Source: an uncultured Alphaproteobacteria bacterium (GTDB lineage: Bacteria; Pseudomonadota; Alphaproteobacteria; RF32; CAG-239). Taken from it: DNA of 64,000 nt. This document shows, piece after piece, positions 2,501 to 62,964 of this stretch. Position 1 is the first letter of the stretch; each line of letters begins with the position of its first letter. Under the pieces are notes generated by a model. The model was not told where the DNA came from and did not search any database. It saw only the letters and a program-made list of their open reading frames with translations. Both the position numbers and the translations under genes were made by a program. The stretch covers positions 62,001-126,000 of the forward strand of contig CALYAY010000003.1 of NCBI GenBank assembly GCA_944393695.1, in the 5' to 3' direction.

Positions 2501-4285
2501 ATGGATTTGTCTCTGGAAAAAATAATCAACAACAAACTGAGTCAGTGTTTTGAAAAGCTGGGATTGAACCCGCAATTTGCCGTGGTTAAAGTTTCGGACA
2601 GGCCGGATTTGAGCGATTTTCAGTGTAACGGTGCTCTGGCACTGGCCAAATCAGAACATAAAAACCCGCGGGAGATTGCCACTCAGATTGCCGCCGAACT
2701 TGAAAAAAACAGCGATTTTGCCAAAGTGTCGGTGGACGGTCCGGGTTTTTTGAACCTGACAATCAATGATTCCCTGCTGGCAAAAGTCATGGAGAACATG
2801 AGCGAAGACGAGAGGTTCGGCTGCGAAAAAGTAAGCACACCCAAAACCGTGGTGCTGGATTTCGGCGCTCCCAACGTGGCTAAAGAAATGCATGTGGGGC
2901 ACCTGCGTTCGGCGGTTATCGGCGAATCGGTGCAGCGGATTGAGCGTTTTGTCGGCAATAAGGTGATTTCGGACACGCATCTGGGCGACTGGGGAACGCC
3001 GATGGGGATGATTATCTCGGAAATTATGCTGATGCATCCGGAATGGCCCTATTTTGACGATAACAAAACTGAAGGCTTTCCCGAAAGCCTGCCCTATGAT
3101 GTGGAAGAGCTGACCGAAATTTATAAAAAGGCCAATGCCCATTGCAAAGAAGACGAATCTGCCCGGCAGCAGGCCCGGATTATCACTGCAAAATTTCAGG
3201 ACGGACATCCGGGATACCGCGCCTTATGGCAGCATTTGCGGCGGATTTCGGTTGAGGCGGTTAAAAAGAATTTTGACGCGCTTGACGTGCATTTTGATTT
3301 GTGGCTGGGTGAAAGCGACGCGCACCAGACCTGCTACGAGATTTTGAAACTGGCGGAGGAAAAAGGCATATCGGAAAAAGACGACGGCGCCGTCATCATC
3401 CGCCTGGATGAAAGCAACAAGCCCAAGCCGCCGGTTATTTTGCAAAAGTCCGACGGAGGTTTTACTTATCATACCACGGATATTGCCACGGTTAAAATGC
3501 GGGTGGATGATCTGAAAGCCGACGAGATTATTTATTTTACCGACAAGCGGCAAGCCCTGCATTTTGAACAGGTGTTCGAAGCGGTGGAAAAACTGGGAAT
3601 TGCACCGGGGGTTAAACTTCAGCATATCGGTTTCGGCACGGTAAACGGCCCGGACGGCAAGCCTTTCAAAACCCGCGACGGCGGCGTGATGAAGCTGGAA
3701 GACCTGATCAACATGTCTAAGGACAAGGTCAGAGAATCTGTTCCGGCGCCGGAAGAGGCAGAAGGTTTTGCTTCGGTTGAGGAAGCCAGAAAGTATATTG
3801 ACAATCTGGTTGAAGAAATTGCCGTGGCGGCGATGAAATTTCAGGATTTAAAGAACAACATTGCCTCCGGTTATGCTTTTGAAATCGACGATTTTGCAAA
3901 GTTTGACGGTAAGACCGGTCCTTATATTCAATATGCGGTGGCCCGCATCAACTCAATTATGCGCAAGGCCGAAGCCGCCGGAATCAAGCCCGGAAAAGTT
4001 ATTATATCCAACAAGGAAGAACGAGAGCTGGCTCTGAAAATCGCCCAGCTGAACACTATTATCATGCGTACGCATCATGACAAGGAACCGAGCATTATTT
4101 CGGATTATGCCTATACGCTGGCGCAGGCTTTCAGCTCGTTTTACAACGCAGCCTCAATTATGAATGCCGAAACGCCGGAACTGGCGGCCTCGCGCCTGCG
4201 GCTGGCCGTTTTGACCCGGGATATTCTCAAGCAGCTGCTTTACCTGCTGGGGATTAAAGCTCCGGAAGTTATGTTGAAAAAATAA
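2501..4285 (+). CDS. argS: Arginyl-tRNA synthetase
   Basis: Charges tRNA-Arg with arginine in the cytoplasm, using ATP. The 594 residues match the usual length. The N-terminal additional domain (about 1-110) is followed by the class I catalytic core with the HIGH-type motif HVGHLRS (about 132-138). GDWGTPMG comes next and then the KMSKS-equivalent loop near FKTRDGGVMKLEDL (about 387-400). The C-terminal DALR anticodon-binding domain begins around residue 470. The ATG at 2501 is the natural start. A strong terminator follows at once, so argS ends the small transcript that begins with the lipoprotein gene. Confidence 0.98.
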   Translation: MDLSLEKIINNKLSQCFEKLGLNPQFAVVKVSDRPDLSDFQCNGALALAKSEHKNPREIATQIAAELEKNSDFAKVSVDGPGFLNLTINDSLLAKVMENMSEDERFGCEKVSTPKTVVLDFGAPNVAKEMHVGHLRSAVIGESVQRIERFVGNKVISDTHLGDWGTPMGMIISEIMLMHPEWPYFDDNKTEGFPESLPYDVEELTEIYKKANAHCKEDESARQQARIITAKFQDGHPGYRALWQHLRRISVEAVKKNFDALDVHFDLWLGESDAHQTCYEILKLAEEKGISEKDDGAVIIRLDESNKPKPPVILQKSDGGFTYHTTDIATVKMRVDDLKADEIIYFTDKRQALHFEQVFEAVEKLGIAPGVKLQHIGFGTVNGPDGKPFKTRDGGVMKLEDLINMSKDKVRESVPAPEEAEGFASVEEARKYIDNLVEEIAVAAMKFQDLKNNIASGYAFEIDDFAKFDGKTGPYIQYAVARINSIMRKAEAAGIKPGKVIISNKEERELALKIAQLNTIIMRTHHDKEPSIISDYAYTLAQAFSSFYNAASIMNAETPELAASRLRLAVLTRDILKQLLYLLGIKAPEVMLKK

Positions 4286-4349: not shown

Positions 4350-6347
4350 TTAGAATTCAAGGACGGGACGAACGTCGTAGCTGGTATTCTTCGTGGTGTT
4401 GACGCTCAATCCGTAGTCGTTGCCGAAATACGATCCCCACACGCCGAAAAATGATTTCAACATGCTGTAGCTATAGTATATGGAAGATGACCAGTTATAG
4501 AAACCTGTTCCTATCTGAGTACCTCCAGCGTTAGTCATACCGATATTAACCAACGGTTGATTGTTGTAATATGAGGTAAATACACCTGGCGCCGGTAAGC
4601 ACCAGTCGCCTGCATTAGTTCCTTCAGTTTTGTATTCGTGTGCTGCCCAAGCTGCCGGATATTTACTCTTGTCTCCGGCAGCGATAATTTTCTGGGTATT
4701 GGTGCAGCTATTCAGGTCTTTACTTGCATTTTCATCACTGTCAAAGTTAGTTAAGCTCGAAATATCTGTGCCAATTGAGCTCCAATCGAGTGAGTTCCAA
4801 ATGTATTTGCCTACGCTATTCAGCGCTATAGCCTGGGCGCAATTGCCGTCATCGCTTTTGTAGACGACGACGGCGATGGGGGTCTTGCCGGAAATTCTTT
4901 GAGGGCTGCAGGTTCTGTCGCTATACAGAATATCACCAATGTTGCAGTTTTTGGCCGAGCCGTTGCATTTGCCCCATTCGGGTTTGGGTTCTTCTTTGCA
5001 AACATCGTCTTTCCATTCATAGCCGCTGGTGCAGGTGCAGGATTTATATTTTCCGTTGCAGGCTTCGCCGGAGCCGCCGGCGTAACCGGTTCCGGAGCAG
5101 GTGTATTTATAGGAACTTGGGCATTGTTCAGTGCAGGTTTGGGAACTTGAGTTCCAGTCGTAACCTGATTGGCAGCCAGATTTGTAATATTTGCCGGAAC
5201 AATCTTCATAGGTGCAGGTGAAAGGTACCGGACAAGAAGTCAGAGTTCCTTTGTATTCGCATTGTTTTGTACAAGTCTTGGTGCTTGCGTTCCAGTCATA
5301 GCCGGACTGGCAGCCGGATTTATACCAGAGGCCGGAGCATTCCTCGTAGGTGCAGGAGAAGGGTGCCGGACAGCTGGTTAGTGTACCGAGATTGGGACAG
5401 GGCTTGCAGTTGTCGTATTTCAGTTGATTGCCGGAGAGGCATGAGTTTGCACCGGTGTCGGGGCCCATGGAACCGCAGTCCAAGAAGCCGTCGCAGGGAT
5501 TGGGTTTTATCTTGTAATGTTCCTGACCGTCACAACCGGTACAGGCTTCGCCGTCTTGTACATAGCCCTCGGGGATACTCGTATTGTCGTATTCGGCACA
5601 GGTGTTGCAACAGGTGCCGTAAGTATTGTCATAAGAACATCTGTCATCACTTAATTGCTGGCCGGTGCCGCATTCATCGACGTAACCGGGGTTTAATTCC
5701 TGACAGGTGCGTTCGGTGTCTTTTTCACAAGAAGCGTATTTTCCGTTACAAGCTTCACCAACCCCGTAATAAGGCGGTTCGCAGGTCACATAATTTGAGG
5801 GACAGGTGGAAACACATTTTTCGAAATAACTATTATCATAAGGGCAGGTGTTGGAAGGTTCCTGCCCATCGGGACAGGATGTCTGAGTATATCCTTCCTG
5901 ACGGCAGCGTTCGGCATTGTCGAGGTCATAGTCATCGCCGTCTCCGGGTCCGCCGGGAGAACCATACCCGTCATCATCGGCATTATTGCCGGCAAATTCA
6001 TTCCCCGAACAGGCCGAAGTGTCTGTCACAAAACAGGTGGCGGCAAGTTTTATTTTATCACCCTGTCTTTTTTCTTCCCTCCCTAAAGATTTAGGGAGGG
6101 TAAGGGTGGGTTTGAAACCCTCTCTATCTCCCCCTAAGTTTTTAGGGGGAGTAAATCCAGCTAAATCTTCAAATGAAGACAACAACGTTTCATCCGGATG
6201 AGAGGTGTGTGTATAAGGTGTGTGGACAAATGTAATCGCACCCGGAGAGTTGAAAGATGTTAAGTTATGAATTGAAGCGGCGCTGCCGTTGGACATAATA
6301 ATCAATCCGGAAACGGACAGCATTAAAGCTTTAGATAGTTTCATCAT
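4350..6347 (-). CDS. Secreted modular cysteine-rich protein with C-terminal DUF1566/lectin-like domain
   Basis: A 665-residue exported protein of no named family that I recognise. Order of parts: signal peptide (about 1-24); a short linker; a segment encoded by a palindromic repeat (about 66-91, see the repeat entry); the motif CFVTDTSACSGNEF (105-118), shared with the proteins at 17.3 and 30.3 kb; an Asp/Gly-rich linker; many Cys-rich units of 30-50 residues (about 130-460) with themes such as GVGEACNGKYASC and two near-identical CTYEDCSG.YYKSGCQSGYDWN units; and a C-terminal domain (about 470-665) with GDWCLPAPG, NWSSS and the ending VRPVLEF. That last domain looks like the DUF1566/Fib_succ_major group with a C-type-lectin-like fold. 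The many cysteines fit a disulfide-bonded surface protein. Function unknown; adhesion or binding is only a guess. It ends convergently with argS. Confidence 0.85.
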   Translation of the reverse strand: MMKLSKALMLSVSGLIIMSNGSAASIHNLTSFNSPGAITFVHTPYTHTSHPDETLLSSFEDLAGFTPPKNLGGDREGFKPTLTLPKSLGREEKRQGDKIKLAATCFVTDTSACSGNEFAGNNADDDGYGSPGGPGDGDDYDLDNAERCRQEGYTQTSCPDGQEPSNTCPYDNSYFEKCVSTCPSNYVTCEPPYYGVGEACNGKYASCEKDTERTCQELNPGYVDECGTGQQLSDDRCSYDNTYGTCCNTCAEYDNTSIPEGYVQDGEACTGCDGQEHYKIKPNPCDGFLDCGSMGPDTGANSCLSGNQLKYDNCKPCPNLGTLTSCPAPFSCTYEECSGLWYKSGCQSGYDWNASTKTCTKQCEYKGTLTSCPVPFTCTYEDCSGKYYKSGCQSGYDWNSSSQTCTEQCPSSYKYTCSGTGYAGGSGEACNGKYKSCTCTSGYEWKDDVCKEEPKPEWGKCNGSAKNCNIGDILYSDRTCSPQRISGKTPIAVVVYKSDDGNCAQAIALNSVGKYIWNSLDWSSIGTDISSLTNFDSDENASKDLNSCTNTQKIIAAGDKSKYPAAWAAHEYKTEGTNAGDWCLPAPGVFTSYYNNQPLVNIGMTNAGGTQIGTGFYNWSSSIYYSYSMLKSFFGVWGSYFGNDYGLSVNTTKNTSYDVRPVLEF
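6077..6151. repeat. Palindromic element inside a coding sequence (copy 1)
   Basis: Two perfect 10-bp-arm palindromes with 4-base loops lie here: CCCTCCCTAA/TTAGGGAGGG (6077-6100) and CTCCCCCTAA/TTAGGGGGAG (6128-6151). Between them is a GGGTTTGAAACCC-type inverted repeat. The element is read without a stop as residues 66-91 of the cysteine-rich protein. The same palindrome cores occur in the intergenic array at 6.47-6.6 kb and inside the paralogue at 30.5 kb. Confidence 0.9.
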
Positions 6348-6382
6348 AATATCACCTGTCTGTTGTTGTCTTCACGAATCTT

Positions 6383-6411
6383 ATCATAACAGAAAGTTTG
6401 TAAATAATCAA
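6383..6411 (-). promoter_or_regulatory. Candidate promoter of the cysteine-rich protein gene
   Basis: On the minus strand TTGATT (6406-6411), a 17-bp spacer and TATGAT (6383-6388) precede a leader that is almost identical to the leader of the paralogous gene at 30.3 kb (AAGATTCGTGAAGACAACAA, then GGTGATATTATGATG). Confidence 0.55.
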
Positions 6412-6459
6412 TGTATATTTTAAATATAATGACGGGAAATCGGACGAGGATGAATGAAA

Positions 6460-6726
6460 CCCTCCCCAACCCCTCCCTAAGTCTTTAGGGAGGGGAGAAC
6501 TCGAAGAACGGAGTGACGCGGGAGAGGATGAGAAAGGTAAAGCTGATATTTAACCCCTCCGGCTCCCCCTAATATTTTAGGGGGAGAATAAGTTAGGGGT
6601 TTAATGTTTTAGGGGAGGATAAAAGGTAAAGCTGGTATTTGACCCCTCCGGCTCCCCTTTTGAAAGGGGAGAGGACAATAAGGAAGATCCCTTGACGTTC
6701 AGACTGGCGCTGAACGAGGGATGACA
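6460..6726. repeat. Intergenic array of palindromic repeats
   Basis: The roughly 400-bp gap between 6348 and 6744 holds no gene. Beyond the promoter it is filled with repeats. There is a CCCTCCCTAA/TTAGGGAGGG palindrome near 6471-6494 and a CTCCCCCTAA/TTAGGGGGAG palindrome at 6563-6586. A CTCCCCTTTT/GAAAGGGGAG palindrome lies at about 6651-6672 and a longer imperfect hairpin at 6686-6725 with arms around CGTTCAG/GCTGAACG. The phrases GGTAAAGCTG and CCCCTCCGGCTCCCC each occur twice. The first two palindromes share their cores with the in-gene elements. Confidence 0.85.
6634..6726 (+). repeat. 93-bp dispersed repeat, copy A
   Basis: This stretch begins GGTATTTGACCCCTCCGG and ends GAACGAGGGATGACA. 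It recurs at 31513-31605 in the same orientation; I see one mismatch (GAGGACAAT here, GAGGTCAAT there). It contains two hairpin-forming units. Confidence 0.9.
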
Positions 6727-6744
6727 GTTTTTTGTTTGAAAAAG

Positions 6745-17301: not shown

Positions 17302-19644
17302 ATGACTATAAAATTTGCCTTGCTGCTTTCCGTTTCTGCCGGCGGGTTGATTGTTTTGTTATCCAAAACAGCAGATGCAGACTTAAAATCGCCATTGTTT
17401 GAAGATATAATTCCCCTCTCCGGTTCCCGGTATGCCAATGTTTGCTTTATTACCGACAGTGAAGATTGCCGGGGCAATGAATTTGAAACCTTTGAAAAAC
17501 CGATTATGCCGGCATTGTGTACTCCTCTGGAAGACGAAACGGACTGTGACTACGGGCGCGAGTTGGCGGACAACGGTTGCGGCGGAATGCGTTATGTCTG
17601 CAAATCGTGTATTCCCTTATCTGACGAAAGCGGCTGTGATTACGGAACAACGACAGCTTCTGACGGCTGCGGCGGCACCAGAACCGTCTGCAAGGAATGC
17701 GTTCCGCTGGCTGACCAGACTGACTGTGAATTCGGAACAACGACGGTTGATGACGGCTGCGGAGGTACGCGCAGAATATGCAAAAACTGTACACCTTTGG
17801 AAAGCGATGATCCCGCAAACTGTGAACACGGCGTTGAAAACGTGGATGACGGCTGCGGCGGTACTCGTACAATATGCAAAGGCTGTACCCCGCAAACCGG
17901 AGACGATCCGGAAAGCTGCGAACATGGTTTTGAGGTTGTTGATGACGGCTGCGGCGGAACAGTCATAAAATGCAACGGATGTTCGCCCAAACCGGACGTT
18001 TCGCCTTCAGACTGCATTTGCGGTGTTGAAAACGAAGATGACGGATGCGGCGGCACGCATATGGTTTGCAAAGCCGGTGATAACAACTGTCAGGGACAGG
18101 AAACACCCTGCGCGGAAGACATGGTTCAGGAAACCTGCACCGACTGCCTGGGAAAAACATTTTATAAATGTTATGATCCCGAAGATACGGAAAAAGCCTG
18201 TCCGCAAAAGGTTTATTGCGATCCCGAAACAAAAATCGGGGTTGAACCGTCGTGTACGGATTCCAAAGGAAAAATTTTTCATGAAAAATGCCTGGCAAAG
18301 GAAATCTGCAAACCGGACAGCGAATATGTCAATTATTACCAGTACAGCGCCGTCGGTGAAGATATTTTTCATCTGGACATGGCCGGATTATACATAAGCA
18401 ACCCGGCGACAGACAAAAACTTTGCCGATAAATTAAAAAGTATTGAGGCCCTGCCCGAAGAAGAACGAAAGTCACAACTGGCAGAACTTGAAGCCCAATA
18501 TTCCCAGATGAACGATCTGGAATATTATAAAGACAAATGCACCACGCAAGCCGGAACAGTTTATAAATATTACGGTCAATGTTCTCCCGGATACAAGCTG
18601 GCGGACGGAACAAAATCCCGTTGTTTTGATTATAAATATTGCGGCGGAGACGTTTACGGCGACGGAAAGACCTGTATCTGCGGCGGAAAAACATATTATG
18701 AAAACTGCAAAACAGACACCTGTTACGACGGAATAATTAATGTTCCCGGCAAGGGGACATGCGAAGGCTTCGTCGAAACGTCGGCATTTCATTATCAGCA
18801 CTTAGATGAAGGCTATTATCTGGTCGGGGAAAAATGTACCACGCTTACCGGAAAAGAAATAAACAATTATTGGAAATGCAACGAAACATCTCCGGACTGT
18901 GAAGGCAACATGCCGCCCTGCGCCGGATATAAGGATTGCGAAGGCTATACTTCCGGCTCAGGAAAAACCTGCACCTGCGGCGATAAAACATATTATGAGT
19001 CTTGTGGGGGTGACCAATGCGACGTAGCGCTTGAAGGATGTTCCATAACTTCCTCATATTGGCAAAATACCGGGCATTACTTGGTAAAAGAAGGCTGCGG
19101 CGGATATCGTTATTATGCATCATGTAATGCTAAATCACCGGATTGTGACGGGGTTATGCCGCCCTGTGCCGGAAAGAAAATCTGCCTGAGCCATCAAAAA
19201 GGCGTGGGGACGGCTTGTTCCTGCGGCGGCAAGACATATTACGACTCTTGTGAATCCGAAGACGTCTGCACGAAATCGGCCGATACAGAATGGGAAGATT
19301 CGACCATATTTACCACCGGCGGTGAATATAAAGTCAGAGAATATTGTACGGATCCCGACACCAATCGTACTTTATATTATCACGCCGCCTGCAACCATAC
19401 TAAAACCGATCTGTCCGGCAATACGGCTCCATGCGCCGGATATTTTGAAGGCTGCGAAACCGGATTGATGGCATCGGGCAAAACCTGCACCTGCGGCGGA
19501 AAAACATATTATGAAAACTGCCTCAAAGAATGCAACTATGAAGACACCGAGGAAAGCTGCCGCAGCCAGGGGCTGGGATTTGAGAGAAAATGCTACGGCT
19601 CAAGAGACGGCAAAACACAGATTTGGTATGGTGAATGCAAATGA
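17302..19644 (+). CDS. Secreted cysteine-rich repeat protein
   Basis: A 780-residue exported protein of no family known to me. I chose the ATG at 17302 because a GAGAGGG ribosome site precedes it and a signal peptide (about 1-26) begins there; an in-frame ATG at 17233 would add 23 unlikely residues. After the signal comes CFITDSEDCRGNEF (48-61), shared with the proteins at 4.3-6.3 and 30.3 kb. Then six tandem units of 30-33 residues (about 73-258) each end DDGCGGTR..CK. Further Cys-rich units follow, several with the theme GKTCTCGGKTYYENC. There are no membrane segments after the signal. The many even-spaced cysteines suggest a disulfide-stabilised rod at the cell surface. Unlike its two relatives it lacks the palindrome-encoded segment. 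Its stop overlaps the next gene's start. Confidence 0.85.
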   Translation: MTIKFALLLSVSAGGLIVLLSKTADADLKSPLFEDIIPLSGSRYANVCFITDSEDCRGNEFETFEKPIMPALCTPLEDETDCDYGRELADNGCGGMRYVCKSCIPLSDESGCDYGTTTASDGCGGTRTVCKECVPLADQTDCEFGTTTVDDGCGGTRRICKNCTPLESDDPANCEHGVENVDDGCGGTRTICKGCTPQTGDDPESCEHGFEVVDDGCGGTVIKCNGCSPKPDVSPSDCICGVENEDDGCGGTHMVCKAGDNNCQGQETPCAEDMVQETCTDCLGKTFYKCYDPEDTEKACPQKVYCDPETKIGVEPSCTDSKGKIFHEKCLAKEICKPDSEYVNYYQYSAVGEDIFHLDMAGLYISNPATDKNFADKLKSIEALPEEERKSQLAELEAQYSQMNDLEYYKDKCTTQAGTVYKYYGQCSPGYKLADGTKSRCFDYKYCGGDVYGDGKTCICGGKTYYENCKTDTCYDGIINVPGKGTCEGFVETSAFHYQHLDEGYYLVGEKCTTLTGKEINNYWKCNETSPDCEGNMPPCAGYKDCEGYTSGSGKTCTCGDKTYYESCGGDQCDVALEGCSITSSYWQNTGHYLVKEGCGGYRYYASCNAKSPDCDGVMPPCAGKKICLSHQKGVGTACSCGGKTYYDSCESEDVCTKSADTEWEDSTIFTTGGEYKVREYCTDPDTNRTLYYHAACNHTKTDLSGNTAPCAGYFEGCETGLMASGKTCTCGGKTYYENCLKECNYEDTEESCRSQGLGFERKCYGSRDGKTQIWYGECK
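17518..18075 (+). repeat. Six tandem coding repeats of about 93 bp
   Basis: Six consecutive units encode Cys-x-Pro..., a Cys-x-x-Gly pair, then Asp-Gly-Cys-Gly-Gly-Thr and a closing Cys-Lys. The DNA phrase GATGACGGCTGCGGCGG(C/T/A)AC recurs nearly unchanged in most units, so the array could expand or contract by recombination. Confidence 0.85.
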
Positions 19645-30280: not shown

Positions 30281-30309
30281 TTTACATCTGCGAATTTTTC
30301 TGCTAATAT
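30281..30309 (+). promoter_or_regulatory. Candidate promoter of the second cysteine-rich protein
   Basis: TTTACA (30281-30286), 17 bp, then TAATAT (30304-30309), followed by the leader AAGATTCGTGAAGACAACAA. The leader is shared with the paralogous gene at 6347. Confidence 0.5.
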
Positions 30310-30347
30310 AAGATTCGTGAAGACAACAACAAGACAAAGGTGATATT

Positions 30348-31424
30348 ATGATGAACAGTAGTAAAGCATTATTGCTTATTTCAGCATCAGGGCTGCTGCT
30401 TATGCCCTGCGGCATATCTTTGGCGGCTTATTTCCCACAGTCATCTCTTCCGGATGCGATTACATCTGTCTATAACACACACTTCACACACACCTCTCAT
30501 CCGAAAGAGACGTTGTTGTCTTCATGTGAAGATTTAGCTGGATTTACTCCCCCTAAAAACTTAGGGGGAGATAGAGAGGGTTTCAAACCCTCCCTTACCC
30601 TCCCTAACTCTTTAGGGAGGGAAGAAAAAAGACAGGATGATAAAATAAAACTCGTGGCGACTTGTTTTGTGACCGATACCTCGGCTTGTTCCGGCAATGA
30701 GTTTAGCGGCAATAATGCCGATGATGACGGGCATGGTGCTCCCGGCGGGCCGGATGGTGACTATGACCTTGATAATAAAGAACGTTGCAACAAAGAGGGT
30801 TATTATCTGACTTCATGCCCGGACGGACAAGAGGGTTCAGGTTTCTGCCCATATGACAGCACTTATTTCGAAAAATGTGTTTCTTCCTGTCCCTCTAATT
30901 ACGTTACCTGCGAACCGCCTTATTACGGGGTTGGTGAAGCTTGCGACGGGAAATATGCCTCTTGTGAAAAAGATACTGAGCGCGCCTGTCAGGAACTTAA
31001 CCCCGATTATGTCGACGAGTGCGGCACCGGACAGCAATTAAGTGATGACAGATGTTCTTATGACAATACTTACGGCACCTGCTGCAACACCTGCGCCGGT
31101 TACGATAACACCACCATCCCCGAGGGCTATGTGCAAGACGGAGAAAGCTGCCTCGGCTGCGACGGACAGGAACATTACAAGATAAAACCAAATCCCTGCG
31201 ACGGTTTTATGGATTGCGGCAGTATGGGCGGTGAGGCCGGGGCAAAGACTTGTTTGTCGGGAACAACCACCATGTATGACAATTGTAAGGCCTGCCCGAA
31301 CTTGGGAGAATACACCTCCTGTCCGAGTTGCACTATATGCCAGTATGAGGAATGCTCCGGTCTGTGGTATGCCACCGGCTGTGCCACGAATTGTACGGAT
31401 TATTGTGACTTCTGCGGCGGGTGA
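30348..31424 (+). CDS. Secreted cysteine-rich protein, short paralogue
   Basis: A 358-residue paralogue of the 665-residue protein at 4.3-6.3 kb. Signal peptide (about 1-27); palindrome-encoded segment (about 67-92); CFVTDTSACSGNEF (106-119); Asp/Gly linker; then the same series of Cys-rich units, including YVTCEPPYYGVGEAC and DECGTGQQLSDDRC. Identity to the larger protein is very high through about residue 330. The protein then ends in its own short tail, CTDYCDFCGG, instead of the repeated units and C-terminal domain. The stop is followed at once by a repeat array. A 278-residue secreted protein carrying the missing C-terminal domain lies 414 bp downstream. It may be a truncated copy or a deliberate short form. 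Confidence 0.85.
   Translation: MMNSSKALLLISASGLLLMPCGISLAAYFPQSSLPDAITSVYNTHFTHTSHPKETLLSSCEDLAGFTPPKNLGGDREGFKPSLTLPNSLGREEKRQDDKIKLVATCFVTDTSACSGNEFSGNNADDDGHGAPGGPDGDYDLDNKERCNKEGYYLTSCPDGQEGSGFCPYDSTYFEKCVSSCPSNYVTCEPPYYGVGEACDGKYASCEKDTERACQELNPDYVDECGTGQQLSDDRCSYDNTYGTCCNTCAGYDNTTIPEGYVQDGESCLGCDGQEHYKIKPNPCDGFMDCGSMGGEAGAKTCLSGTTTMYDNCKACPNLGEYTSCPSCTICQYEECSGLWYATGCATNCTDYCDFCGG
30547..30621. repeat. Palindromic element inside a coding sequence (copy 2)
   Basis: CTCCCCCTAA/TTAGGGGGAG (30547-30570), GAGGGTTT/AAACCCTC (30576-30592) and CCCTCCCTAA/TTAGGGAGGG (30598-30621) follow one another. It is read through in frame as residues 67-92 of the cysteine-rich protein, in the same orientation relative to the gene as copy 1. 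Confidence 0.9.
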
Positions 31425-31837
31425 GGGATTGCTGCTTATTCCCTCGCCCTTGAGGGGAGAGGGTTAGGGTGAGGGTGGAATGGAGAATGTAAGTCCGATG
31501 AATGAAGCGGCAGGTATTTGACCCCTCCGGCTCCCCTTTTGAAAGGGGAGAGGTCAATAAGGAAGATCCCTTGACGTTCAGACTGGCGCTGAACGAGGGA
31601 TGACATTGTTGATTTGTTTGACCTGGATCCTCGGGGCAAGCCCGAGGATGACATAAAAAAAGGGGGGGGAGGATGGCAGAGAAGAGAGGGGAAAACAGAG
31701 AGAAGAATCATGAAACCCACCCTGCCCCTTCCTGAGTTTTCAGGGAGGGAAAAGAAGAGGGGTAGAGCCCTAAGGCTTTAGGGCGAGGATATAAGGAGAA
31801 ACAAATATTATTAACAACTAATATAAGGAGAAAGGTT
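31425..31837. repeat. Second intergenic array of palindromic repeats
   Basis: This 413-bp gap holds no gene. In order: a CCCTC...GAGGG hairpin near 31443-31465; the 93-bp dispersed repeat (31513-31605); ATCCTCGGG/CCCGAGGAT (31627-31649), a palindrome known as a common dispersed repeat type in Proteobacteria; an A7G8 tract near 31654-31668; a CCTTCCTGA/TCAGGGAGG palindrome near 31727-31748; and GCCCTAA/TTAGGGC (31767-31784). The sequence ATATAAGGAGAAA then occurs twice, at 31789-31801 and 31821-31833; the second is the ribosome site of the next gene. Confidence 0.85.
31513..31605 (+). repeat. 93-bp dispersed repeat, copy B
   Basis: It matches 6634-6726 in the same orientation with one mismatch seen. 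Copy A lies upstream of a minus-strand cysteine-rich gene and copy B downstream of a plus-strand one, so the repeat did not simply travel with the gene duplication. Confidence 0.9.
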
Positions 31838-32674
31838 ATGAAGAAGATATTATTGGCAAGTGCGGGGGTAATGGTGATGAGTGCGGGGACGGTGTATGCC
31901 GCCTGTATTCCGACGCCGAGTTGTTCAAGTTTAGGGTATGAAAGTTCCTCATCCTGCGAAGGCGGGATTAAATGCCCCTTCGGCAATGCCTGGAACTGCA
32001 CTGTTATCAACAAAGTTAACGAAATCACCAACAAAGTGACTGAGCTTGAAAAAGTGATTGAAGAAGGAGGAACTTCTGGAAACAAAGGCGACACTTCAAA
32101 CTGCAAAATAGGTTCGATTTTCTACTCAGACTGGACTTGCTCTTCCGGCAGTCTGTCACCTGGAAAAACCCCAATCGGTGTGGTTGTCTATATAAACGGA
32201 GAAGGCCATGGACAGATTATGGCTTTAGGCAGCATTGGTTATTATAAATGGGGGCCGGATGATGTTGATATCCCGACCTTGACTAATTTTGACAGCGCTG
32301 AAAGTGCGAGTTACGACTTGAACAGCTGTGCTAATACCCAGAAGATTATGGCGGCAGGTGATAAGAGCACTTATCCGGCTGCCTGGGCTGCTCACGAATA
32401 TAAAACCGAGGGAACAGAGGCCGGAGACTGGTGTCTACCGGCGGCTGGCGTATTTACCTCTTATTATAATAACCAACAGCTGGTTAATATCGGTATGACG
32501 AACGCCGGGGGTGAACAATTAGGAACAGATTCCTATCACTGGTCGTCTTCTGAACTCAATAACTACTACGTATGGCGCTCGAATTTCGGTTACAGCTATG
32601 GGTTGCTCAGCGGTGGCAGCGGCAGCTACACTAAGATTGACAGCTACGAGGTTCGGCCGGTGCTGGAGTTTTAA
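31838..32674 (+). CDS. Secreted protein with DUF1566/lectin-like domain
   Basis: A 278-residue exported protein: signal peptide (about 1-21, ending TVYAA), a short Cys-rich stretch (about 22-50), a short coiled coil (about 50-70, NKVNEITNKVTELEKVIEE), then a domain (about 85-278) homologous to the C-terminus of the 665-residue protein. Shared landmarks are CKIGSIFYSD, GKTPIGVVVY, LNSC.NTQKI, GDWCLPA, NIGMTNAGG, WSSS and VRPVLEF. The C-terminal 35 residues vary most between the two. Function unknown; the fold is probably C-type-lectin-like, which suggests binding. It has a strong AAGGAGAAAGG ribosome site and its own terminator. Confidence 0.8.
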   Translation: MKKILLASAGVMVMSAGTVYAACIPTPSCSSLGYESSSSCEGGIKCPFGNAWNCTVINKVNEITNKVTELEKVIEEGGTSGNKGDTSNCKIGSIFYSDWTCSSGSLSPGKTPIGVVVYINGEGHGQIMALGSIGYYKWGPDDVDIPTLTNFDSAESASYDLNSCANTQKIMAAGDKSTYPAAWAAHEYKTEGTEAGDWCLPAAGVFTSYYNNQQLVNIGMTNAGGEQLGTDSYHWSSSELNNYYVWRSNFGYSYGLLSGGSGSYTKIDSYEVRPVLEF

Positions 32675-61947: not shown

Positions 61948-62964
61948 TTAACGGGATGAAACAGATTTGGCAAACAATTTCATAACCTTAAAAGCATTTT
62001 CGGCCACGCCGACACGCAGATTATCGGCCACACACCAAAAGCTGAAGCCGCTGTCGACAGAGACATCCTGACGCAGACGACTGACGTAAATGTCGTCTTC
62101 ACCCTGGACATCGGCCAAAGAAACATAGCCGCCGTCAACATTTTTATCAAACACAACCACACCTTCGGTTTGTTTCATCAGCTTGCGGACATCATCGACA
62201 TCCACATCTTCGTCACATTCGACGTTAACATACTGAGCGGCACCGATAAACGCCGGTATGACGGCAAAATTGGCATGGACACGAATATCCCGGGCCAAAA
62301 TCTTTTTGGTTTCGGCATTAACGGCCCATTCAAAAGAAGTTTCATCACCGATAAATTCGCCCACCTGGGGAATCAGGTTAAAAGCAATCTGTTTGTGAAA
62401 GACCTTCTGATTATCTACCAAGCTCTCGTTCATGAAAATCTTGCGGGTCTGGTCAAAAAGTTCATCCATGGCTTCGCGGCCGTAAACGGATGTCGAGGCA
62501 TAGCAGTTTACCAGCAGGCGGCGGATATGATATTTGTCATCAACGGCTTTAAGCGGAACAAGCATCTGGGTAACCGCGGCAGAAGGAATCGAAACCATTC
62601 CCCGGGACGCCTGTTCAAGCCGTTCGTCATTAACGCCGGCAATTATCATCGGCACATCGCTTTCGCCGATAAAAGCGCCGGAAGTATCAATCACTTTGCA
62701 TCCCGAGGTCAAAGCTTTTCCGGCATAGCGTTTGGAAATTTCCGGGGTAACGGCAAAAACAGCTAGGTCAATGCCCGAAAAATCAAACCCTTCTAAATTA
62801 GAAACATCGAGTTCGTCATCCTCTCCGTAAGAAACCTGGGTTCCCAAAGGGGAATTGACATCTACGGCACATACGTCCACGGCTTTTATTCCGTCTTCAC
62901 TCAAAAAGCTTAAAATTTCGCGGCCGATACTTTCATGAACGCCGACAACTGCGATTTTAGACAT
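61948..62964 (-). CDS. Aspartate-semialdehyde-dehydrogenase-like protein lacking catalytic residues (Usg-like)
   Basis: A 338-residue protein of the ASD superfamily. The N-terminal Rossmann domain has IAVVGVHESIGREIL, and DTSGAFIGESDVPMIIAGVN is as in the family. Active ASD has PNCSTIQ; here residues 127-133 read PSAAVTQ, so the nucleophile Cys is lost (Ala129). The region of the active-site His (RVPVxxGH) reads IPAFIGAAQYVNVE, so the His is gone too. This matches the Usg type of non-catalytic paralogue. A true asd must lie elsewhere. Transcription runs into the MscS gene 19 bp downstream. Confidence 0.85.
   Translation of the reverse strand: MSKIAVVGVHESIGREILSFLSEDGIKAVDVCAVDVNSPLGTQVSYGEDDELDVSNLEGFDFSGIDLAVFAVTPEISKRYAGKALTSGCKVIDTSGAFIGESDVPMIIAGVNDERLEQASRGMVSIPSAAVTQMLVPLKAVDDKYHIRRLLVNCYASTSVYGREAMDELFDQTRKIFMNESLVDNQKVFHKQIAFNLIPQVGEFIGDETSFEWAVNAETKKILARDIRVHANFAVIPAFIGAAQYVNVECDEDVDVDDVRKLMKQTEGVVVFDKNVDGGYVSLADVQGEDDIYVSRLRQDVSVDSGFSFWCVADNLRVGVAENAFKVMKLFAKSVSSR

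Follow-up and report, generated by a model that had tools for sequence, protein, structure and literature searches.

In one family of secreted proteins, DNA that resembles junk has been turned into protein time and again, and a diversity-generating retroelement (DGR) mutates the far ends of these same proteins. The analyzed window comprises 64,000 nucleotides (positions 62001–126000 of contig 3) of a 1.75-Mb genome assembled as a 38-contig draft, in which the family numbers ~60 paralogues with no internal stops in any match of the protein search. The explanation that we prefer, with a probability of about 0.6, is in-frame capture resembling that of Rickettsia palindromic elements (RPEs) at one tolerant linker, followed by reshuffling among paralogues. 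Short palindromic and interspersed intergenic repeats would have repeatedly entered a single site of this Cys-rich family, namely the linker lying right behind the signal-peptide segment and ahead of the first conserved Cys. Inserts standing in frame and free of stops would have been kept, the palindrome cores being open in one of three frames, and would then have been copied, swapped, and extended among the paralogues via recombination or conversion. The outcome would be a spacer of variable length (17–145 codons) between the export segment and the Cys-rich body.

Two members of the family, P0001 and P0002, lie in the window. P0001 consists of an N-terminal segment, a repeat-derived linker, a Cys-rich domain, and a C-terminal region whose end is a variable region of retroelement type. 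The genes and their surroundings are organized as follows (window coordinates):

4350–6347, minus strand: P0001, a 665 aa secreted Cys-rich family protein (translation, family search).
4360–4443, minus strand: 3′ end of P0001 matching the retroelement template (variable region).
6036–6173, minus strand: linker of P0001, 46 codons, residues 59–104.
6077–6151, minus strand: two-hairpin repeat in the linker of P0001, classes a1+m+p, with hairpins at 6077–6100 and 6129–6150 (genome copies).
6174–6186, minus strand: right (coding) arm GTTGTTGTCTTCA of a long-range inverted repeat, directly before the linker of P0001 (covariation).
6362–6375, minus strand: left (leader) arm GTGAAGACAACAAC of P0001, predicted mRNA 5′ end.
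6383–6411, minus strand: putative sigma-70-like promoter of P0001, TTGATT-17-TATGAT (consensus match only; upstream conservation).
6455–6735: intergenic array of the same palindromes beside P0001.
17302–19644, plus strand: P0003, a distant relative with a CFITD motif, used as the empty comparator in the first-pass annotation.
30281–30309, plus strand: putative sigma-70-like promoter of P0002, TTTACA-17-TAATAT (consensus match only).
30317–30330, plus strand: left (leader) arm GTGAAGACAACAAC of P0002.
30348–31424, plus strand: P0002, a 358 aa secreted Cys-rich family protein (translation).
30512–30524, plus strand: right (coding) arm GTTGTTGTCTTCA of P0002.
30525–30662, plus strand: linker of P0002, 46 codons.
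30547–30621: two-hairpin repeat in the linker of P0002, with hairpins at 30546–30569 and 30598–30621.
31436–31796: intergenic array behind P0002, with the same palindromes and other repeats.
31838–32674, plus strand: P0004, a secreted protein behind P0002, whose C-terminus (32539–32672) is a retroelement variable region.

The 75-bp two-hairpin element is read through in frame as residues 66–91 of P0001 and 67–92 of P0002; translation confirmed exactly the coordinates and residues given for both by the first-pass annotation, and the palindrome cores of the coding copies do recur, as it had described, in the arrays adjoining the two genes. Its FED motif was found to be wrong for one of the two carriers, P0002 having CED. 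Each copy of the element is made of two hairpins of ~22–24 nt joined by a AGAGAGGGTTTCAAACCC-type sequence. The core CTCCCTNAANNNTNAGGGAG, allowing at most one mismatch, occurred 146 times on the plus strand of the genome and 0 times for a backward control. It is open in only one of the three reading frames, because the other two usually run into TAA or TAG. Searches of Pfam and NCBIfam assigned P0002 and P0004 to no family and gave nothing above the cut-off for P0001, and the structure prediction for P0001 from a two-row alignment had a pLDDT of 31, too low to be informative.

A DNA search of the genome revealed ~20 near-full copies of the 75-bp element, the best loci being in-frame copies in this one family. 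The place of insertion is constant: between the N-terminal signal-peptide segment and the conserved CFVTDTSxCSGNEF. Among the 50 members with a complete N-terminus and linker, on which the counts of linkers rest, 47 carried palindromic or interspersed repeats in frame, two were empty, and one (L059) had another insert. At least six kinds of repeats, most of them unrelated to each other, occupy the site. Some linkers contain a hairpin a1, a2, or a3 followed by m+p (the a2 class is designated AFY), and others a2 followed by tandem b hairpins and w. Kind C (TCACCCTCACCCGGAGC...) is without CTCCCT hairpins; kind D–E comprises TCATCCTCGG...CCGAGGATCC and CTGGATACTCC...GGAGTATGAC; further kinds are F (~195 bp), G, and H. 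Several linkers are composites in which as many as six or seven pieces are joined. Quite different N-terminal segments (VMSRIHQLYV... and MLKQKTILV...) precede the usual domain and linker repeats in the family members L135 (1815–2183) and L101.

The two empty members, L092 and L093, have a linker of 17 codons (xEDF[DN]K.DNK.IQLAA) versus 27–145 codons elsewhere, so the clean empty sites sought by the first-pass annotation exist in the same genome. P0003, which it had proposed for this role, does share the CFITD motif; it is a poor empty-site control because the N-terminus and leader arm that characterize the true family are both missing from it, and L092 and L093 serve better.

All these kinds of repeats recur outside the family: they were found, in intergenic DNA, in 20 regions away from the known members. 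Two copies in long frames at contig ends were apparent exceptions and proved to be further family members. A peptide search of the whole genome for in-frame copies in other genes yielded long open frames in this family only. The first-pass annotation had proposed a gene-invading palindromic element that should stand in frame in several unrelated genes; the in-frame carriage of intergenic palindromic repeats and the empty sites bear this out in part, but every in-frame copy found belongs to one family and one site.

Whether a copy lies in a gene matters for some repeat classes. Copies of a2-b-b-w contained a stop or frameshift in 2 of 12 cases in genes versus 21 of 24 outside (p = 6 × 10⁻⁵). 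Repeats F, C, G, and H are mostly open in the used frame even outside genes, so that the keeping of the frame indicates selection for some classes only. The inserts themselves are probably tolerated spacers rather than selected ones. The a2+m+p composite is nearly confined to the family, with one long copy outside, and this class may therefore have spread by recombination only. For repeat F, 23 copies were aligned, of which three lie in linkers and the remainder outside; they include L137, L146–L151, and L094, and most of those outside genes have an open core frame. A known RNA family was rejected, as none of the 10 loci scanned had an Rfam match at the gathering score; repeat F likewise had no match in the loci scanned.

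The relatives recovered by a RecJ scan are bins of uncultured Alphaproteobacteria or Pseudomonadota, one of them from reindeer. In two sister genomes, the same linker is filled with repeats different from those described above. Linkers of the related family in G009 hold VIARRTSSDEAIHN...SPRRINSPRDD and DLDVRVKPEHD type repeats, peptides that are translations of the DNA repeats GTCATTGCGAGG...AAGCAATCC and CTGGATGTCCGGGTCAAGCC...CATGAC; those of G007 contain an F-like repeat as well as a two-hairpin piece. The linker repeats of both genomes also occur outside genes there. The linkers of the members examined in G002 were short, and that genome yielded neither repeat set; members read in G001 and G008 likewise had short linkers. 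An old conserved domain was rejected, since the members in G002, G001, and G008 are without the linker residues. One linker acts as a trap for the repeats of the genome, whichever they are; this has happened with different repeats and in at least three species.

Export segments, linkers, and bodies form a mosaic, because linker class is decoupled from the N-termini and linkers are more alike than their flanks. Among pairs of N-termini with at least 95% identity, only 5 of 61 had the linker class in common, versus 16.6% of all pairs. Judged by N-terminus, nearest neighbors had the same linker class in 8 of 48 cases, against a mean of 10.6 after shuffling; judged by the domain, they did so in 19 of 48, where shuffling gave a mean of 10.8 and at most 21. 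Within the a1 and a2 (AFY) classes, linkers had a mean identity of 94–95%, versus means of 77% for the N-terminus and 82–83% for the domain, and the linker exceeded both flanks in 9/10 a1 pairs and 8/10 a2 (AFY) pairs. L010, L057, and L093 are 99.4–100% identical over 177 bp of N-terminal DNA, with a2+m+p, a2+b+w, and nothing, respectively, as linkers; 250 bp upstream, the DNA of L057 and L010 is unrelated. The left and right parts of linkers are exchanged at the hairpins as well: a1, a2, and a3 each stand before the same m+p, and a2 stands before m+p or b+w. Contig ends fall in many family genes of the 38-contig draft, so misassembly may account for some of the mosaic joins, but the pattern holds generally and recurs in the sister genomes. 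Recombination among paralogues is what presumably spreads the inserts. A clean target duplication was found neither in the comparison of L093, L003, L010, and L097 nor in that of L092 and L099, the hairpin ends being inverted repeats; no defined element end was demonstrated at the filled sites, and a Y1_Tnp transposase (PF01797; RAYT) was absent from the genome, while positive controls worked. These results give no sign of active transposition.

The same mosaic could be read in another way, in which the palindromes are kept as homology common to the linkers and the surrounding arrays, and the linker is a recombination joint, the seam of modular diversification. We consider this possible but unlikely. 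It agrees with the free combination of export segments, linkers, and bodies, with the exchange of left and right linker parts at hairpins, and with the clustering of palindromes at the family: of 87 listed exact sites, 72 are no more than 2.5 kb away from such a domain, versus ~15% expected (with the sizes of three contigs approximated). However, ordinary gene conversion among 60 paralogues also gives free combination, and the short-linker members of G002, G001, and G008 form a family without palindromes.

A 14-bp inverted repeat stands beside the linker: the predicted 5′ end of the mRNA is complementary to the last codons before the linker, which starts directly behind the right arm. The leader contained GTG[AG]AGACAA... 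in 50/50 members, with its complement in the codons directly before the linker, and the pattern GTGRAGACAAN{176,206}TTGTCTTC matched at ~50 places in the genome, at family loci, and at 0 in the control. The left arm lies ~7 nt behind a sigma-70-like –10 box and should thus be the mRNA 5′ end. Across this and the sister species, the arms change together (ACAAC/GTTGT, AAATGT/ACATTT, AAGC/GCTT, GGCAAAC/GTTTGCC, and GGAGATAAGT/ACTTATCTCC), and members of G009 and G010 have another arm pair, GGAAAGAAGTTTG/CAAACTTCTTTCC, or a part of it. On 23 distinct rows, the arms paired in 91.6% of cells, versus 78.7% when shuffled and 40–53% when slid, with 51 doubly changed cells versus 15. G–U pairs at internal arm positions tend to favor pairing at the RNA level. 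As the arms are present in short-linker species, they are probably older than the palindromes. An inverted export segment was not found in the assembly, the start codon facing the domain in 50/50 parsed members and at the pattern sites; a phase-variable inverton was rejected because the segment occurs there in one orientation only.

These arms bear on a reading as read-through of intergenic DNA: an export segment that was mobile or had been converted, comprising promoter, leader, and signal peptide, would have been placed in front of domain genes, and the DNA between the two, rich in repeats, would have turned coding. An arm does bound the N-terminal block, with the linker beginning directly behind it, and the block is 98–100% identical between genes with unrelated (~60%) DNA 250 bp upstream and differing linkers. 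Nevertheless, this reading is improbable: the DNA upstream of the left arm (the promoter region) is conserved in all members, so that the outer end of the exchanged block cannot be the arm, and the short related linkers of the sister species and of L092 and L093 suggest that the joining of the two parts preceded the arrival of the repeats.

One insertion into an ancestral gene followed by duplication, the simplest history according to the first-pass annotation, was found to be hardly probable. P0001 and P0002 (L001 and L004) do share the two-hairpin element at the same residue, but their linkers are 93.5% identical versus 67.8% for the N-terminal DNA and 78.9% for the domain. Linkers more alike than both flanks and a linker class not tied to the N-terminus speak against such a history, as do the occupation of the site by six or more kinds of repeat and the near-identical 5′ ends common to empty and filled members; being disfavored, it could be rescued for single linker classes only. 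A role at the RNA level, in which the hairpins are kept as mRNA structure by the leader-coding stem (e.g., stabilizing the transcript) and their translation is tolerated, is very improbable, for although both window leaders are predicted to fold into a long-range stem followed by linker hairpins (z = –7.4 and –6.4) and its covariation extends across the genus, palindrome-free species and members retain this stem, so the hairpins are not needed for it, and some repeat-bearing linkers (class C) are without CTCCCT hairpins.

The far ends of the family are the target of a retroelement. One reverse transcriptase (RVT_1) was found on contig 17, adjoining an Avd gene and an AAC-rich template:

G000 contig 17, minus strand of locus L134: reverse transcriptase at ~1130–2440, template at ~2440–2575, Avd at ~2690–3060.

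The Avd gene matched bAvd (PF22296) above the Pfam cut-off and NF033474 (DivGenRetAVD) below the NCBIfam cut-off. About 20 distinct variable regions in this genome and three in the sister genomes match the template; they are scattered over the genome, where they form the end of a family gene or of the gene following it, being fused in P0001 and located in the separate gene P0004 behind P0002. The variable region of L022 differed from the template at 16 of 40 A sites and at 0 of 83 other sites; over all 23 regions, including the three from sister genomes, A was changed in 44% and C, G, and T in 14–18%. A DGR genome usually has one or a few variable regions, and ~20 is many more. A survey of DGRs reports that most cellular targets are binding proteins, either exported or anchored in the membrane, and points out that it misses remote targets (PMC8144416); a secreted family with remote variable regions fits this survey.

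These parts might together serve modular diversification of surface proteins, through exchangeable arm-bounded export segments, palindromic recombination seams, and retroelement-rewritten ends. We regard this as a tentative and rather doubtful possibility; if true, a repertoire of ~60 secreted variable proteins would come from a 1.75-Mb genome. In any case, one family joins gene duplication, module shuffling, repeat capture, and targeted hypermutation, and it also has a conserved leader-to-coding RNA stem (or DNA inverted repeat) and unusually many retroelement variable regions. The linkers offer dozens of natural replicates on which to ask if such inserts act as spacers or recombination seams or are no more than neutral ballast.

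In-frame palindrome capture is best known from Rickettsia, where it extends over many genes. RPEs are interspersed palindromes of alphaproteobacteria, located both in intergenic DNA and in frame inside genes, and open in the used frame (PMC2229807, PMC10969869). The capture at one tolerant linker that we propose resembles them in that palindromic repeats are both intergenic and in frame within the same genome. It differs in that RPEs, ~150 bp long with a conserved peptide, occupy many unrelated and often conserved genes, whereas here at least six kinds share one site in one secreted family. Because in-frame insertion in unrelated genes was searched for and all copies lay in this family, we do not claim membership among the RPEs. 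Other MITEs fused in frame to ORFs are Correia/NEMIS, ERIC, and YPAL/RU-2, YPAL fusions giving putative exported proteins (PMC2229807). They are similar as small repeats in frame with ORFs; however, as described, they are scattered single fusions, whereas here one site is reused throughout a 60-member family. REPs are extragenic by name and definition. REP/BIME sequences are short palindromes in intergenic arrays (PMC3733652), and in this they resemble the present repeats; in contrast, the genome studied here is without the Y1 transposase, and a RAYT-driven REP was rejected on this ground. With DGR systems, the family has in common A-biased variable regions at its C-termini or in the following gene, with reverse transcriptase, Avd, and template on contig 17, whereas the linker repeats lie outside the DGR mechanism. 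Palindromes in frame are known from RPEs and other MITEs; the single site, its many repeat kinds, and its recurrence with different repeats set this family apart.
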